The notes beneath the pieces are model-generated. The model saw only the letters and a program-made list of their open reading frames with translations, made no database searches and had not been told where the DNA came from. A stretch of 28,295 bases of DNA from a virus. Within the stretch, counting starts at the first letter, position 1. Each line of letters starts with the position of its first letter. This document shows, piece after piece, positions 4,376 to 17,377 of the stretch. The stretch covers positions 1 to 28,295 of IMG/VR virus record IMGVR_UViG_3300009183_000292; one strand, given 5' to 3'. The translations under genes and the position numbers were made by a program.

Positions 4376-4976
4376 CTGTTTGCGGTCTCCATCCACCTAA
4401 ATGTTTTATAAGAGAACCAATTGCACGTTGAACTTTCATACGTGCACCATCAGGTGTGCTGTCCATATCTTTTGCAAGCAATGTCCAGTCAGGTTGTTCT
4501 ATACTAAATCGTAAACGTAATATGTTTTGTTTTGTTTCAGACAATTTGTAGTAGCCTGCTGCTATGTCAGACCTTAACGATAACCAATTGTTACCATCTG
4601 AAATCTCACTTGTTTTGACCGTGTCACCCAAGTCTTTAATTTTTGTAGGTATTTCATAGGATTCTCCTATGATCGAGGGAAGAAAAACTTCTATAACTGA
4701 CACATCATAGTAGTATAAATCGGACATATCGTACCCGATTTTCTTTGCTTTTTCTTTTTCGCAGAACTTAAGTGCTGCATTGCGTAGCGATTTAGCAATA
4801 AGTTTATCTCGATCTTTTTGTTTTAACTCAGACCACTCTTTATACTTACGTGGGTGTCCTACAAACCATACCCACAACTCTTGCCCTATGTCATCACGCT
4901 CCACCATTGTATAGCGTCTTGCATATTCTGTGGCAAGTGTCTGTACTAAATCATTGTACTCATCAATGTAATTCAT
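4353..4976 (-). CDS. RNA polymerase sigma-70-like factor
   Basis: The 207-residue protein has two parts typical of short sigma factors. Residues about 8-75 look like region 2, with a helical YARRY segment and RDDIGQELWVWF resembling the core-binding helix. Residues about 145-195 look like region 4: KLSETKQNILRLRF followed by a helix-turn-helix (DWTLLAKDMDSTPDGARMKVQRAIGSL, split here by its turn). The linker is acidic. Such factors direct host RNA polymerase to phage promoters. It lies in the leftward unit near the WhiB gene, and its ATG overlaps the stop of the phosphoesterase gene by one base. The sequence is divergent, so a related DNA-binding protein without sigma activity is possible. 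Confidence 0.72.
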   Translation of the reverse strand: MNYIDEYNDLVQTLATEYARRYTMVERDDIGQELWVWFVGHPRKYKEWSELKQKDRDKLIAKSLRNAALKFCEKEKAKKIGYDMSDLYYYDVSVIEVFLPSIIGESYEIPTKIKDLGDTVKTSEISDGNNWLSLRSDIAAGYYKLSETKQNILRLRFSIEQPDWTLLAKDMDSTPDGARMKVQRAIGSLIKHLGGWRPQTDEDSKVE

Positions 4977-5725
4977 TACGGAATGATTACCTCGCCGTTA
5001 ACAATTGGAACAGCAAATGGTGTAACTTTACGATTGTGTTCTACTAAGATGCCAATACCATGCTGCCAGTTAGCGCTGCCTGATGTTAAGTAACTAGCCT
5101 GCTTTACATCCATCATGTGTCCAACTTCAAGACCATACAATGTATTAGTCTTACCATAAAAACCAGTGGTTTCATGTTGCAAACCCACGCGATGCGTATG
5201 TCCACATACTACTGACTTGCCTAAACGTTTTGCTAAATTTAATGCAGTAGCCCCTGGAGCACGGTTAAGTACACCTTCATCTCCGTGTGCCATGACCCAA
5301 CCTGGAAGTAACTCATGCATTTTATGTAGGTAATTAATTTTTAGTTTTTCATAGCCAAGTAGTTGTTCAATCTCTAATGACTTGAGTGACATAAATGCTG
5401 GCGCATACTTGCGCATGTATGTATCTATGCGGTCAGTATGATTACTGCGTTGAATGTAAAATGGCTTGTTACCCAGTGCTTTGCGGTAACGAGCCATTGT
5501 GTCGTGCGTTAAATCAATACCATCTTGTAGTGTTTCTGCGTATTCTCCTGCCATACCTTTGTTCCAACGACTAGGTTCGGGTGCATCTAGTTCGTCTCCA
5601 ACACACCAGAGTTCATCTGGTTTATAATCTTGGATAAATTCTAGTGTGGCATCTACGGTTTTATTATGTTGATAGGGTATCTGAAGATCGCTGAGAACCA
5701 CTACCCTCTTTGTTTTGCTTACCAT
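4976..5725 (-). CDS. Calcineurin-like metallophosphoesterase
   Basis: The 249-residue protein has the ordered metal-site motifs of the superfamily: LSDLQ at 11-15 (D13, with Q in place of the usual H), GDELD at 43-47, SNHTDR at 94-99 (N95, H96), AHGDEG at 146-151, and CGHTHR at 174-179. These hold two metal ions and hydrolyse phosphoesters, and phage members are thought to act on nucleic acids or nucleotides. The start at 5725 is supported by GGAAGG eight bases upstream, which forces a 62-base overlap with the end of the Nmad1 gene. The first motif begins at residue 11, so a much later start would destroy the site. The substrate is unknown. Replacement of the first His by Gln is known in phage relatives but may alter metal preference. 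Confidence 0.88.
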   Translation of the reverse strand: MVSKTKRVVVLSDLQIPYQHNKTVDATLEFIQDYKPDELWCVGDELDAPEPSRWNKGMAGEYAETLQDGIDLTHDTMARYRKALGNKPFYIQRSNHTDRIDTYMRKYAPAFMSLKSLEIEQLLGYEKLKINYLHKMHELLPGWVMAHGDEGVLNRAPGATALNLAKRLGKSVVCGHTHRVGLQHETTGFYGKTNTLYGLEVGHMMDVKQASYLTSGSANWQHGIGILVEHNRKVTPFAVPIVNGEVIIP

Positions 5726-7440: not shown

Positions 7441-7580
7441 TTTTTTGGTAGTTCTCTAATTACATCAACTATCCATCCATTTGCTGCACCTTGTTCTGCA
7501 CGTTCTTCTGCAATCTCAAGGCTAGATGCACGAATAACTTTTAGTTTATTTTTTACATATATAATTTCATACTTTGGCAT
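7437..7580 (-). CDS. Small hypothetical protein (47 aa)
   Basis: This gene encodes 47 residues beginning MPKYEIIYVKNKLKVIRASS. The ATG shares a base with the TAA of the ATPase gene, and its TGA overlaps the nuclease ATG, which is strong context for a real gene. The pattern is two short strands, a helix (LEIAEERAEQGAANG) and a final strand (WIVDVIREL). This would make a small alpha/beta unit of the kind seen in many tiny phage proteins. No family was recognised. Its place between a helicase-like ATPase and a nuclease suggests a replication accessory role, without direct evidence. Confidence 0.72.
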   Translation of the reverse strand: MPKYEIIYVKNKLKVIRASSLEIAEERAEQGAANGWIVDVIRELPKK

Positions 7581-8395
7581 TATACTTTCATCTCCATCTG
7601 TGTGCTATCTCTGATGACATCTTCAAGATGCATTTTGGCTGGGTCAAATGATAGCGTTAGGTAAGTTGCCCCTGTTGGGTCAGCCTTACCATAACGATTT
7701 TTAACTGGGGCTACACATAAGTAACTGTCTACTCCATGTATCATCTGACCTACTGTTAGTACCATTGCTGGTATCTGTGCAACCTTACCCTGTAATGCTG
7801 AACGTGGCTGACAAGGATAACCTTGTGCTCCTTCTTGGGTATGGTGCAAGACTAGTACTGCTGCATTGGTATCACGTGCTAGATATTTTAACTCTTTCAT
7901 AACTGCACGCATACCTGCAAACTCTTCATGTCCATCAATGGCTATGTCCATAAGATTATCTACAACTATAAGAGTAGGACTTCTGCCCCACATAGTTTCA
8001 AATGCTGATACTTCTTCATCTAAATCTTTTAGTGTAGGGCTAGGTTCAAATGACCAGTACATACCAGAGAACTCACGCAGATAATGCTCTGCTGATTCTG
8101 GCTTGGTCTTAATCATGTACTCAGCATCTTGCTGAGTTATCTTGGCTTTCATAGCAAGCAAACGCATTGCCATAGTATGTGCATTAGTATCGGCAGAGAA
8201 GTATAGTGTTGGTTGTTTTAACCTTGCTGCGATATGTAATGCAATAGATGACTTACCTGCGCCTGGAGTACCTGCTATGACTGTAACTTCTGCTCGACGC
8301 AAAATGATACCTTCACGTTGAAAAGCCTGAAATGGTGGGGGCAATGGTTCTCCCCCAACATCTGGCTTACCGATACTACGGCGGAGTGTTTTCAT
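7580..8395 (-). CDS. DnaB/RecA-like ATPase, probable replicative helicase
   Basis: The 271-residue protein is a RecA-fold ATPase. It has Walker A GTPGAGKSS at 42-50, a DnaB-like LYFSADTNAHTMAMRLL segment at 64-80, Walker B LIVVDN at 142-147, an LVLHHTQEG sensor-like strand near 185, and VKNRYGKADPTG near 232 that resembles the DnaB arginine-finger/KNR motif. It lacks the N-terminal DnaB domain, as in short phage helicases. It would form a ring that unwinds DNA ahead of the phage primase encoded about 0.5 kb downstream. AAAGG lies six bases before the ATG. The ATPase family call is firm. Helicase over recombinase (KaiC- or Sak4-like) is the more likely reading because of the primase partner. 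Confidence 0.87.
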   Translation of the reverse strand: MKTLRRSIGKPDVGGEPLPPPFQAFQREGIILRRAEVTVIAGTPGAGKSSIALHIAARLKQPTLYFSADTNAHTMAMRLLAMKAKITQQDAEYMIKTKPESAEHYLREFSGMYWSFEPSPTLKDLDEEVSAFETMWGRSPTLIVVDNLMDIAIDGHEEFAGMRAVMKELKYLARDTNAAVLVLHHTQEGAQGYPCQPRSALQGKVAQIPAMVLTVGQMIHGVDSYLCVAPVKNRYGKADPTGATYLTLSFDPAKMHLEDVIRDSTQMEMKV

Positions 8396-13455: not shown

Positions 13456-13634
13456 TAGAAGGGTACCTCCACATGTTCACGCTGGCATCGTTTACGCCAG
13501 ACTGATAGCCGACTACGCAAGAATCTATTGTCGTTTAATAGTTTGTAGTTGGCTATGAATAGTAGTACTAACATGATGGCATTGATAGCACCACATATAA
13601 GCATGATTAGTAGTTCTGTGTAATCTATAAACAT
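13455..13634 (-). CDS. Small single-span membrane protein (59 aa)
   Basis: The ATG follows GGGAG by seven bases. The 59-residue protein has one hydrophobic span at about residues 8-29 (LLIMLICGAINAIMLVLLFI) and a basic cytoplasmic-type tail (RFLRSRLSVWRKRCQREH). The positive-inside rule puts the N-terminus outside. It is the first gene after the internal terminator at 13697-13741, so it may start a separate transcription unit that includes the Cys-rich protein and the transglycosylase-like protein. It could be a membrane partner for that enzyme. No family was recognised. Confidence 0.7.
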   Translation of the reverse strand: MFIDYTELLIMLICGAINAIMLVLLFIANYKLLNDNRFLRSRLSVWRKRCQREHVEVPF

Positions 13635-14177: not shown

Positions 14178-14579
14178 TTATCTCACATTACTTTCTAGTG
14201 GTTTGTCGCATGACTGGCAATCGTTGTACATTTTTGGTGTGAGTATGTGACACCACTGGCACTCTGTCTCGCGTGCACGCTGGGTCATGTCTTCCAACTC
14301 CCATAGTTCCTCATAGACTCCGCCGTCCTGTAGGAATACTACGGGTAGTTTGTACTCACCTTCCCTGTCTGTCCAGTCATGACCACTTGGCTCTGTGGTC
14401 GTGAGCCATTGACGCTTGTACTGAAGGTTGCCTTCAGACGCTGACTCATACGCTTTGTCGGTGAGTCGAGCGTCTGCTGTTTCTACGCAGTCAACGCATA
14501 GCATTTCTTGTGCGATACATTCTGGGCAGACATTGTTTACTGTGAGTGAGTCGCCTTCTGTGTACTGTACTTCGTTCAT
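14178..14579 (-). CDS. Multi-Cys zinc-type protein, first gene of leftward unit
   Basis: The ATG at 14579 has GGAG seven bases upstream and is preferred over a start at 14600. The 133-residue protein has CPEC and CVDC near residues 18-31, which make a possible first zinc site. After a middle region with GHDWTDREGEYKLPVVFL come CQWC and CQSC near residues 106-125, which make a second. The two CxxC pairs at each end suggest two zinc ribbons. It is the first gene transcribed leftward from the 0.9-kb control region, a place typical of immediate-early regulators. It may act on transcription or DNA, but no family was recognised. Confidence 0.73.
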   Translation of the reverse strand: MNEVQYTEGDSLTVNNVCPECIAQEMLCVDCVETADARLTDKAYESASEGNLQYKRQWLTTTEPSGHDWTDREGEYKLPVVFLQDGGVYEELWELEDMTQRARETECQWCHILTPKMYNDCQSCDKPLESNVR

Positions 14580-14601
14580 GTTGTTCTCCTTGCTAACCAA
14601 C

Positions 14602-14625
14602 CCCTAGATTTTAGGGCAACGCCCT
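14602..14625 (-). promoter_or_regulatory. Two mutually exclusive leader hairpins before the first leftward gene
   Basis: CCCTA (14602-14606) can pair with TAGGG (14612-14616), while AGGGC (14613-14617) can instead pair with GCCCT (14621-14625). The two hairpins share bases, so only one can form at a time in the leader RNA, just upstream of the ribosome-binding site of the gene at 14579. Switching is a hypothesis only. Confidence 0.35.
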
Positions 14626-14881
14626 GACATCGCAGGCATCGAGCAGGCGAAGCATTTCTGACTGCTTACGAGCAGACCATGGAGCGCAGCGGAATAGCGT
14701 CTGTGAGTAGGAAGAAATCGAGATGCCGTCACCAGCACAGCAACCATGCATTCGTAGAACTATGTGACTGGAATGTGCAAGCACAGACTGGGACTGTGAG
14801 GCTTGTCATGCCTGAAAGGTGTGACGAGGCTCATGGTTACAGTCTGCTTGACATTCTGCTGGTGGCGATAAAATCAGAGGG

Positions 14882-14908
14882 ATCATAAGTAAAAGACGGC
14901 GATATCAA
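14882..14908 (-). promoter_or_regulatory. Possible leftward early promoter
   Basis: On the minus strand TTGATA (14908-14903) and TATGAT (14887-14882) are separated by 15 bases, shorter than ideal. It lies in the palindrome region and would give a leader of about 300 bases before the first leftward gene. No better leftward pair was seen. Confidence 0.3.
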
Positions 14909-14925
14909 TTCAATTGAATTGTATC
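14901..14925. repeat. Long near-perfect AT-rich palindrome
   Basis: CAATTCAATTGAATTG at 14906-14921 is a perfect 16-base palindrome. GATA and TATC extend it with one unpaired T at 14905. It could be a regulator site or an origin element. The overlap with a possible leftward -35 box makes an operator plausible. Confidence 0.75.
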
Positions 14926-14942
14926 GGCGGCTGGTCTGCCTT

Positions 14943-14996
14943 TGATTTGACAGGCGAAGGCGACAGAGCGGGAGCGTCGCCTTTGACTCCAAATCA
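14943..14996. other. Nested stem-loop with two perfect stems
   Basis: TGATTTG (14943-14949) pairs with CAAATCA (14990-14996), and inside it AAGGCGAC (14957-14964) pairs with GTCGCCTT (14976-14983) around an 11-base loop. The two nested stems suggest a structured RNA or a cruciform. No T run follows, so it is not a terminator. The octamer GCCTTTGA also occurs upstream at 14939-14946, which would allow competing pairing. Confidence 0.6.
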
Positions 14997-15010
14997 TAGG
15001 ACAGATTACG

Positions 15011-15070
15011 ACCATTGGTAGATAGTTGTAGGTCTGAGGGTTTACCATTGGCAGACTGAGAGGTCTGGAG
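15011..15070 (+). repeat. Two near-direct repeats (ACCATTGG[T/C]AGA ... AGGTCTG)
   Basis: The copies at 15011-15038 and 15044-15070 share ACCATTGG(T/C)AGA and AGGTCTG(A/G)(A/G)G in the same order, at a 33-base step, or roughly three helical turns. Such spaced copies resemble iterons or a regulator's paired sites. Confidence 0.5.
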
Positions 15071-15099
15071 ATACTTCTCCAGTAGTAGTATTATTTTTT
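15065..15099 (+). terminator. Weak terminator-like hairpin
   Basis: CTGGAGA pairs perfectly with TCTCCAG around TACT. T6 lies 11 bases past the stem at 15094-15099, which is far for a normal intrinsic terminator. It may instead be one of the cluster of regulatory hairpins. Confidence 0.3.
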
Positions 15100-15112
15100 A
15101 TAGTAGACTCTA

Positions 15113-15180
15113 GACTGAGCCTCAGTCAGTCAGGCAGACTGTCTCTACATACACAGTCCACACTGTGCAGTCTGTACTGC
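15113..15180. repeat. Cluster of short inverted repeats
   Basis: GACTGAG-C-CTCAGTC (15113-15127), CACAGT-CCAC-ACTGTG (15152-15167) and GCAGT-CTGT-ACTGC (15167-15180) follow one another, with CAGACTG and CAGTCTG copies at 15135-15141 and 15168-15174. This density of dyads suggests several sites for one DNA-binding protein. Confidence 0.6.
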
Positions 15181-15316
15181 TGTAGTAGTCTCTTTCTGTT
15201 CTATTTGACCCCCTATTGTTAAATATACGGCTGTAATATGTATTGTATCTCTACCTATAAATATTTCTGTATATAGTGACTGGGGGTAGTTATCTGTCTG
15301 TTTCTATTAAGTAATA

Positions 15317-15338
15317 AACTATTTGCCAGTAAATAGTT
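15317..15338. promoter_or_regulatory. Operator-like dyad before the late promoter
   Basis: AACTATTT and AAATAGTT form a perfect 8-bp inverted repeat around GCCAGT. It ends three bases before the -35 hexamer at 15342, the usual place for an activator or repressor dimer. Confidence 0.6.
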
Positions 15339-15341
15339 CGT

Positions 15342-15370
15342 TTGACCTGTTTGAACGGATTAAGTATATA
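15342..15370 (+). promoter_or_regulatory. Sigma-70-like promoter for the terminase/structural unit
   Basis: TTGACC and TATATA are separated by exactly 17 bases. Transcription would start near 15377 and leave a leader of about 110 bases before the terminase ATG. The leader includes a small TGCC-TTC-GGCA hairpin (about 15467-15477) and a GGGGATA site before the start. It is the best promoter in the window. Confidence 0.7.
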
Positions 15371-15487
15371 TGTACAGTAAAATATATTCGGAAGTCTTTT
15401 TAGAGCCTTCCTCATACTGTGACAGACTGCTGTACAGATATACTTTTATACGGCGGGATAACTCTGCCTTCGGCAAGGGGATAATGT

Positions 15488-17377
15488 ATGGCAGGGTTTA
15501 AATCAGGCGGCGAACACCACCTAGTAAAAGGTGTCACTCAAGCCAAAGAACAAGTTCTTGAGAAGGTGCGGGTGGGCGTCTCCCCTCAGGCGGCTATGAT
15601 TGCCATAGGCAAGAAGCCAGATACTATCCGTCAATGGATGGTCAGAGACCCATTATTTGCAACGGCACTTGAAGAAGCCAAGGAAGAAGGAAGTAAACAA
15701 TCCTTTGATGCCCTTGGTGTCCAAAAGGAGTCTATTCCCTTTGCAGAGTTTTCTAAGATGTTTTTTGACCAAATGGTCTTTCCTCACCACCAGAACTGGA
15801 TTGACCTTCTGGAGGGACGCGAGCCTTCTTGGGACCACCCTAATATTATATATGAGCCTGGAGAGCCTAACCGCCTCCTAATCAACGTGCCTCCTGAGCA
15901 CGCTAAGTCCACTGTTATCACGGTGAACTACCCAACTTACCGCATTGCCCTCAATCCCAACATCCGCATCATTGTGGTATCAAAGACGATTACTAAGGCA
16001 CGCGAGTTCGTATACGCTATCAAGCAACGATTGTCCCATCCACGCTGGCTTAAACTGCAGACCGCATATGGTCCAGAAGGCGGTTGGAAACAAGACGCAG
16101 ATACTTGGCGTACCGATACCGTCTATCTTGGGGGCGATGCGCGTAATTCATCTGAGAAAGACCCAACCATTCAGGCACTAGGTATGGGTGGTCAGATTTA
16201 CGGCGCACGTGCAGACTTGATTATTCTTGACGACTGTATAACTACAGCCAACGCTCATGAGTGGGAACAACAGATTAACTGGTTGCAGAAGGAAGTTATT
16301 ACCCGTTTGGGTAAGAACGGTAAATTGTTAGTGGTGGGGACCCGAATTGCAGCAAATGATTTATATAAAGAACTTCGTAATCCAAAGCATTGGTCAGGTG
16401 GCAAGACTCCGTTTAGTTATATGGGCATGCCTGCTGTACTGGAGTATTCGGAGAAGCCAGAAGACTGGGTTACTCTCTGGAAAGAGTCGGACGTCCCGTG
16501 GGATGGCGATGATGACACTCCTCAGGAAAACGGCTTCTACCCCAAGTGGGACGGGCAAGCCTTATTTAAGCGTCGCTCGGAAGTCACACCCTCAACTTGG
16601 GCACTTGTATACCAGCAAGAAGATATACAAGAAGATTCCATCTTCCCACCCATGTTGGTGCAAGGGTCAACTAACGGGATGCGGAAGCGAGGTCCACTAA
16701 GAGATGGGGCTGCTGGACATCCTGCTCACGTAGAACCTTACATTGTAGTTGGTTTTGACCCTGCTATGGCAGGTAACGCTGCATTTGTAGTTTGTACTTA
16801 CAACCGTGCAGATGGCAAAATTTACGTTAACGATTGTATTAATATGACGGAGCCAACTCCGCAGAAAATTAGGGCGACAATTGAAGAACTGGTTATTAAA
16901 TATAAGCCGCAAGAGTTTAGAGTTGAAATCAACGCCCATCAAAAAGCCTACTCCCTTGATGACGAGTTACGAAACTGGCTTGCTGGATACGGCGTACGCC
17001 TTGATGCTCACTTTACAGGCAAAAACAAGTGGGACACATCCTTCGGCGTTGCGTCAATGTCTAACTTGTTTGGCACAGTCCGAGAAGAAAAGTTCCAAAA
17101 AAACAACATTATAGAACTTCCTTCTTCTGAGGGTAGTGAAGGCATAAAGGCTCTTACTCAACAACTGTTGACTTGGAAGCCAAACACTAAAGGCAAGACA
17201 GATACTGTTATGGCGTTGTGGTTTGCAGTTATTCGCATCCGCGAACTTATGCAGTCTAATAGTCACACATCTATGTATGCCAACAATCGTTGGACTACTA
17301 AAGCACAGATGAATAATAGATACTCAATCAACCTAGACGATGCCTTTGCAGATCAATGGCACGACATATATGGATAG
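15488..17377 (+). CDS. terL: Terminase large subunit with N-terminal helix-turn-helix extension
   Basis: The 629-residue protein is a packaging ATPase-nuclease. Residues about 30-65 (VSPQAAMIAIGKKPDTIRQW, then MVRDPLF) look like the DNA-binding helix-turn-helix of a small terminase. The ATPase part has a Walker A variant PPEHAKST at 135-142 and Walker B LIILDD at 244-249. The C-terminal RNase-H-like nuclease has D424 (VGFDPAMAG), E480 (RVEINA) and D572 (TDTVMALWFA). It cuts concatemeric DNA and drives it into proheads through the portal. A GGGGATAATGT stretch precedes the ATG, and no separate small terminase gene is visible nearby, so the fused N-terminus may replace it. The function is sure; the fused role is inference. 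Confidence 0.95.
   Translation: MAGFKSGGEHHLVKGVTQAKEQVLEKVRVGVSPQAAMIAIGKKPDTIRQWMVRDPLFATALEEAKEEGSKQSFDALGVQKESIPFAEFSKMFFDQMVFPHHQNWIDLLEGREPSWDHPNIIYEPGEPNRLLINVPPEHAKSTVITVNYPTYRIALNPNIRIIVVSKTITKAREFVYAIKQRLSHPRWLKLQTAYGPEGGWKQDADTWRTDTVYLGGDARNSSEKDPTIQALGMGGQIYGARADLIILDDCITTANAHEWEQQINWLQKEVITRLGKNGKLLVVGTRIAANDLYKELRNPKHWSGGKTPFSYMGMPAVLEYSEKPEDWVTLWKESDVPWDGDDDTPQENGFYPKWDGQALFKRRSEVTPSTWALVYQQEDIQEDSIFPPMLVQGSTNGMRKRGPLRDGAAGHPAHVEPYIVVGFDPAMAGNAAFVVCTYNRADGKIYVNDCINMTEPTPQKIRATIEELVIKYKPQEFRVEINAHQKAYSLDDELRNWLAGYGVRLDAHFTGKNKWDTSFGVASMSNLFGTVREEKFQKNNIIELPSSEGSEGIKALTQQLLTWKPNTKGKTDTVMALWFAVIRIRELMQSNSHTSMYANNRWTTKAQMNNRYSINLDDAFADQWHDIYG

Follow-up and report, generated by a model that had tools for sequence, protein, structure and literature searches.

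The packaging RNA (pRNA) of phi29 is a structured phage RNA encoded close to the end of the genome. GOLLD, ROOL and OLE are large and ornate RNAs of bacteria and phages, and many members of GOLLD exceed 800 nt (PMC12286853). In described Streptomyces phages the region matching the one treated here is the physical end of the genome, with a direct terminal repeat (PMC9753666).

The window, which is the whole stretch of DNA analysed, is the complete record IMGVR_UViG_3300009183_000292, a virus fragment of 28,295 bases. The interval 14580-15487 has leftward genes on its left and the rightward terminase and portal genes on its right, which confirms the division between oppositely directed gene blocks stated in the original prediction. 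It is a compound of three parts, A (14601-15022), B (about 15050-15200) and C (15204-15487), and not a single element (Table 1). We read it, with a probability of roughly 70%, as a compound locus at a probable genome end, composed of a structured RNA (RNA-A) on the left and of packaging or terminal-repeat DNA on the right. Leftward genes, noncoding DNA, a repeat array, the motif GACCC..TTGTTAA, a G-run and the terminase are shared with the terminus of the Streptomyces Beephvirinae phages, whose terminases are only 43-46% identical to that of the window. In distinction to the window, the repeat word of these phages is CGGACA/ATGTCC in place of CAGAC[A/T]G, RNA-A was not found in them, and their terminal repeat is part of the deposited genomes, while in the window it is not demonstrable. 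By means of the terminase, 80 related viral contigs were fetched.

Table 1. Features of the interval and its surroundings, in positions of the window.
Feature	Position	Strand	Remarks
DnaB-like ATPase gene	7580-8395		
First gene of the leftward unit	14178-14579	-	ATG start at 14579 probable; kept beside the slot in relatives
Structured noncoding RNA (RNA-A), conserved core	14601-15022	+	Fold z, 16-sequence alignment; no Rfam match
CAGACTG copy 1	14784-14790	+	Inside RNA-A, not conserved
CAGACTG copy 2	14840-14846	-	Inside RNA-A; pairs with copy 1 in the window sequence only
CAGAC[A/T]G-rich repeat segment	15050-15200		Copies at 15052, 15135 and 15168, and near-copies
CAGACTG copy 3	15052-15058	+	
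Terminator-like hairpin	15065-15099	+	CTGGAGA-TACT-TCTCCAG (15065-15082) and AT-rich tail, T6 at 15094-15099; from sequence
CAGACTG copy 4	15135-15141	+	Many relatives read GGCAGAC[A/T]GT at this place
CAGACTG copy 5	15168-15174	-	
Conserved noncoding block before terminase	15204-15487	+	blastn matches in nearly all of the 80 terminase relatives
GACCCCCTATTGTTAA motif (GACCC..TTGTTAA)	15207-15222	+	Once in the window, on the + strand
G-run	15282-15286		In conserved block
Promoter-like TTGACC-17-TATATA	15342-15370		In conserved block
Hairpin, then terminase leader	around 15390-15415		In conserved block
CAGACTG copy 6	15423-15429	+	In conserved block; not CAGACTG in aligned relatives
Terminase large subunit	15488-17377	+	phrog_38, E 1.4e-68

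That the left half of the interval is a structured RNA we hold to be nearly certain; it is the main object of the locus and had been missed by the original prediction, whose hairpins are nevertheless real. The fold of 14601-15020 has a z of -7.97 on the plus strand and of -4.63 on the minus strand, the background from 200-nt pieces of the remaining window being a mean z of -1.1 (sd 1.15). Among the terminase relatives, L036, L044, L061 and L076 carry the same 420-nt element, and further carriers were found by two exact DNA words taken from it. The RNA-A profile matched 28 loci, a figure in which some contigs are counted twice, at this same place just before the terminase, and where flanks were present the terminase was downstream and the ribosome-binding site of the leftward gene ended just before the element. 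The alignment of the 16 distinct sequences (A3), with consensus pairs from RNAalifold, has 134 pairs with 98.1% of the cells paired. Changes on both sides were present in 20 of these pairs, compared to 6.1 in shuffles (none of 500 reaching 20) and to 2-5 when the partners were slid. They include a long-range helix closing a domain (columns 29-33 with 277-281), where U-A is replaced by G-C in four sequences. In the window sequence itself the 5' domain is much rewritten and the pairing mostly kept.

It is extremely unlikely that the structure of the left half acts as DNA (hairpins for attachment, recombination or protein binding) or that it is the leader of the leftward operon on the minus strand. 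The minus strand does beat its shuffles at the z given above, and the hairpin at 14601-14616 keeps its pairing through G.U on the minus strand only, beside the leftward ribosome-binding site, but the alignment contains 192 G.U cells against 10 A.C cells on the plus strand, and the RNAalifold consensus energy is -147.1 on plus compared to -114.0 on minus, plus being far better in all three alignments. From these counts and energies the RNA strand is plus. The small hairpin at 14601-14616, paired in relatives as just described, may belong to the leader of the leftward mRNA.

RNA-A had no match in Rfam at gathering or at lax thresholds (E up to 10) except for chance miRNA and snoRNA models, neither ARAGORN nor Rfam found a tRNA or tmRNA in the interval, and the open-access literature searched yielded no description of this RNA. 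In a DNA similarity search of annotated cultivated phages for the RNA, the terminase alone was matched. A perfect match of 20 nt to an archaeal MAG, which the covariance model did not recognise, was rejected as a cellular homologue and taken as chance. Protein coding in the left half was equally dismissed, since only short overlapping open reading frames are present and the changes in the alignment follow base pairs and not codons. A candidate switch helix (14871-14880 with 14939-14948), counted one column off the intended register, showed no covariation, and neither did its +1 slide, in which 80.6% was paired.

RNA-A resembles GOLLD, ROOL and OLE in being large and phage-encoded, with an elaborate covarying structure and no known protein partner; extensive covariation is a trait of this kind of RNA and does not define a family. 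It differs in that it does not match the Rfam models of these RNAs at the gathering threshold, and from GOLLD in being shorter (about 420 nt) and in sitting at a constant position, flanked by leftward genes and the terminase, and not in a tRNA island. tRNA genes are sometimes near the known RNAs, and here one is found in L024, where a tRNA-Arg gene (4908-4980, plus strand) separates the conserved block from the terminase; the corresponding place in L062 is taken by a tRNA-like sequence. The likeness to the phi29 pRNA is that of a structured phage RNA near a probable genome end; size and sequence are different, and the interval is without a match to any Rfam family.

The 3' end of RNA-A is probably the terminator-like hairpin at 15065-15099, judging from its sequence. 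L040 carries another hairpin there, GGGGAT-GCA-ATCCCC followed by T7. Stem and T-run at 15065-15099 lie farther apart than is usual in classical terminators, and a consensus scan made no terminator call there. No promoter for RNA-A was found, its 5' end abutting the start of the leftward gene, and a sigma-70 scan performed no better than on shuffles. RNA-A would measure about 420-500 nt, from 14601 to about 15022 or possibly to 15100, and its transcription would be independent, starting at a promoter near 14600 and stopping at a terminator near 15100. Our most likely guess is that, like GOLLD and ROOL, it would stand alone as a phage RNA produced during infection and would not be a leader of the terminase. 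A long 5' leader of the terminase and late operon, similar to a riboswitch or an attenuator, would fit the strand of RNA-A, its fixed place upstream of the terminase and the terminator-like hairpin between the two. Such a role is nonetheless unlikely, as a separate promoter-like site and the conserved block also lie between RNA-A and the terminase, and many relatives with the same terminase have no RNA-A or have unrelated structured RNAs, unlike what is expected of a dedicated regulator. The transcription switch proposed in the original prediction is not borne out.

Most relatives are without RNA-A, and its covariance model recovered no divergent copies from them; they carry other structured RNAs in the slot. 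Complete intergenic regions were present in 29 relatives, and nearly all of these contain one or more 200-nt pieces whose plus-strand z falls below -4. In three slot groups both partners had changed in 19, 21 and 15 pairs, well above the 0-7 such pairs counted in terminase alignments of these groups; the slot alignments are thin, with three sequences each, and folding by RNAalifold leans towards structure, hence the coding controls. A module AAUCRN..N'YGAUUUGAC, named RNA-B, is present in 25 terminase-fetched loci, and two variable positions of its stem are paired in all 17 distinct sequences (G-C 11 and A-U 6 at one, U-A 9, G-C 7 and G-U 1 at the other). It occupies the slot of L010, L012, L024, L025, L028, L034, L040 and others, often with a UGAAUAG loop, and is without a match in Rfam. 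RNA-B is a second structured RNA, previously unreported, in the same slot of many relatives. A slot version of 1.2-2.4 kb is conserved among L068, L070, L075, L087 and L017, with z down to -10.2; some of these loci have minus-strand open reading frames of up to 176 codons, and this version may be RNA or gene. In FlowerPower, within 44747-46133 (L118:1748-3134), about 1.1 kb of unannotated DNA, the noncoding right end 44747-45880, extends from the last leftward gene to the terminal repeat, and some of its pieces are structured (z -5.3, -5.1 and -4.6).

One could regard the slot as a place at the genome end where unrelated large RNAs (RNA-A, RNA-B and others) swap and where the RNA has a role tied to that end. 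The slot RNA would then have a dedicated task, for instance as the first product on DNA entry or as a packaging aid; we consider this doubtful. Even less probable is that RNA-A acts in DNA packaging in the manner of pRNA. What speaks for that is its location beside the terminus and the terminase, whereas at about 420 nt it is unlike the packaging RNA of phi29, near-identical terminases have different RNAs in the slot, and a conserved pairing of terminase and RNA was not demonstrated.

The original prediction had started from a repeated heptamer, CAGACTG, and its six positions within the interval and a further one at 13498 are all exact. Six copies in 908 nt compare to 0.19 expected, and in 1000 dinucleotide-shuffled versions of the interval neither CAGACTG nor any other heptamer reached six copies, with the caveat that four other 908-nt stretches of the window, two of them resembling simple repeats, hold some heptamer 6-7 times. 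Over the whole window seven copies against 4.1 expected are unremarkable (9 of 100 shuffles). CCTGAAC, counted on either strand, occurs seven times in the 908 nt at 1817-2724, which overlap the open reading frame 1544-2863. The first two copies of CAGACTG are the two arms of one hairpin within RNA-A and vary in relatives. A single heptamer system across the 0.9 kb is thereby ruled out.

The picture differs for the segment at 15050-15200. In the relatives an anchor motif was located in 45 of 53 non-redundant sequences, and the segments upstream of it that were longer than 100 nt were used. These contained 40 copies of CAGACTG (1.7 expected, present in 27) and 38 of CAGACAG (1.5 expected, present in 24); the relatives are not independent and z-scores of these repeats are upper bounds. 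The heptamers are thus strongly enriched at the matching place, which is the outcome that the original prediction had proposed to look for in related genomes. Just upstream of the terminase are found three of the seven CAGACTG copies of G010 and three of the six of G009, and in the fragment G014 all four copies lie just downstream of its copy of RNA-A. Positions of the repeats differ among genomes with the exception of one site, 15133-15142 (GGCAGACTGT), the best conserved in place within the segment, and this variation suggests selection for the copies rather than simple inheritance. The segment is probably an array recognised by a protein. Of the earlier idea of many sites bound by one protein, the enrichment at the same place in relatives makes this part plausible, while the copies at 14784 and 14840, being unconserved, drop out. 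The first candidate to bind the repeats, put forward tentatively, is the terminase, because its N-terminus (residues 17-67) shows weak similarity to a terminase small subunit (phrog_4044, E 5.7e-4).

The motif GACCC..TTGTTAA of the conserved block is found again in four Streptomyces Beephvirinae phages, where 20-40 nt separate it from the end of the direct terminal repeat that contains it; in the deposited genomes this repeat measures 253 bp in FlowerPower, 264 bp in WRightOn, 275 bp in Immanuel3 and 263 bp in Stella. The repeat of the Streptomyces phages ends between GGGGGAGTG and AGTCCC, and CGGACA/ATGTCC words are 6-9-fold enriched in the last 600 nt of these genomes. The deposited repeat of Abafar is longer (396 bp) and contains the same sequence. 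In the family of the window the block lies immediately upstream of the terminase and carries this end motif, which is variable, the strict pattern being present in 21 of 53 relatives. Of nine near-complete relatives (38.5-40 kb), five have end overlaps of 123-127 nt and are opened at arbitrary places. This fits terminal redundancy and speaks against single cuts at fixed sites in genomes lacking redundancy. These circularised assemblies are compatible with an identical sequence at both virion ends without proving it, collapsed circles hiding a terminal repeat.

From the Streptomyces terminal repeats with the same motif and from the overlaps in the window's own family, we consider it reasonably probable that parts B and C (15050-15487) are a terminus or packaging region in front of the terminase. 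By this analogy the right half would be cis-acting DNA, made of the CAGAC[A/T]G array and the conserved block, where concatemers would be recognised and cut and after which the promoter and leader of the terminase would follow. The phage of the window may accordingly bear a direct terminal repeat here, and the repeats may bind a protein, for which the terminase with its N-terminus resembling a small subunit is the best candidate.

The right half might instead be an iteron-type replication origin, with a phage initiator binding CAGAC[A/T]G and opening the AT-rich DNA at 15204-15400. Multiple identical short repeats, as in iterons, are indeed present and adjoin AT-rich DNA, the repeat type is conserved in relatives, the cumulative GC skew changes direction near 14 kb and a DnaB-like ATPase is encoded in the window. 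We nevertheless rate an origin as rather unlikely: the turn of the skew coincides with the switch in gene direction, and the analogous repeats of the Streptomyces relatives lie in and beside the terminal repeat before the terminase, the matching region there being the genome end. The origin that the original prediction had put forward is therefore without specific support; an origin and a terminus can coexist and are not mutually exclusive.

Few large structured RNAs are known from phages (GOLLD and ROOL), and they are unexplained; here at least two undescribed ones share one position, next to the terminase and a probable genome end, in an environmental group resembling actinophages. Since the layout is common to cultivated Streptomyces phages, the claim of a terminus is directly testable, and for finding the rule by which a single-chain terminase recognises DNA the repeats are a defined target.
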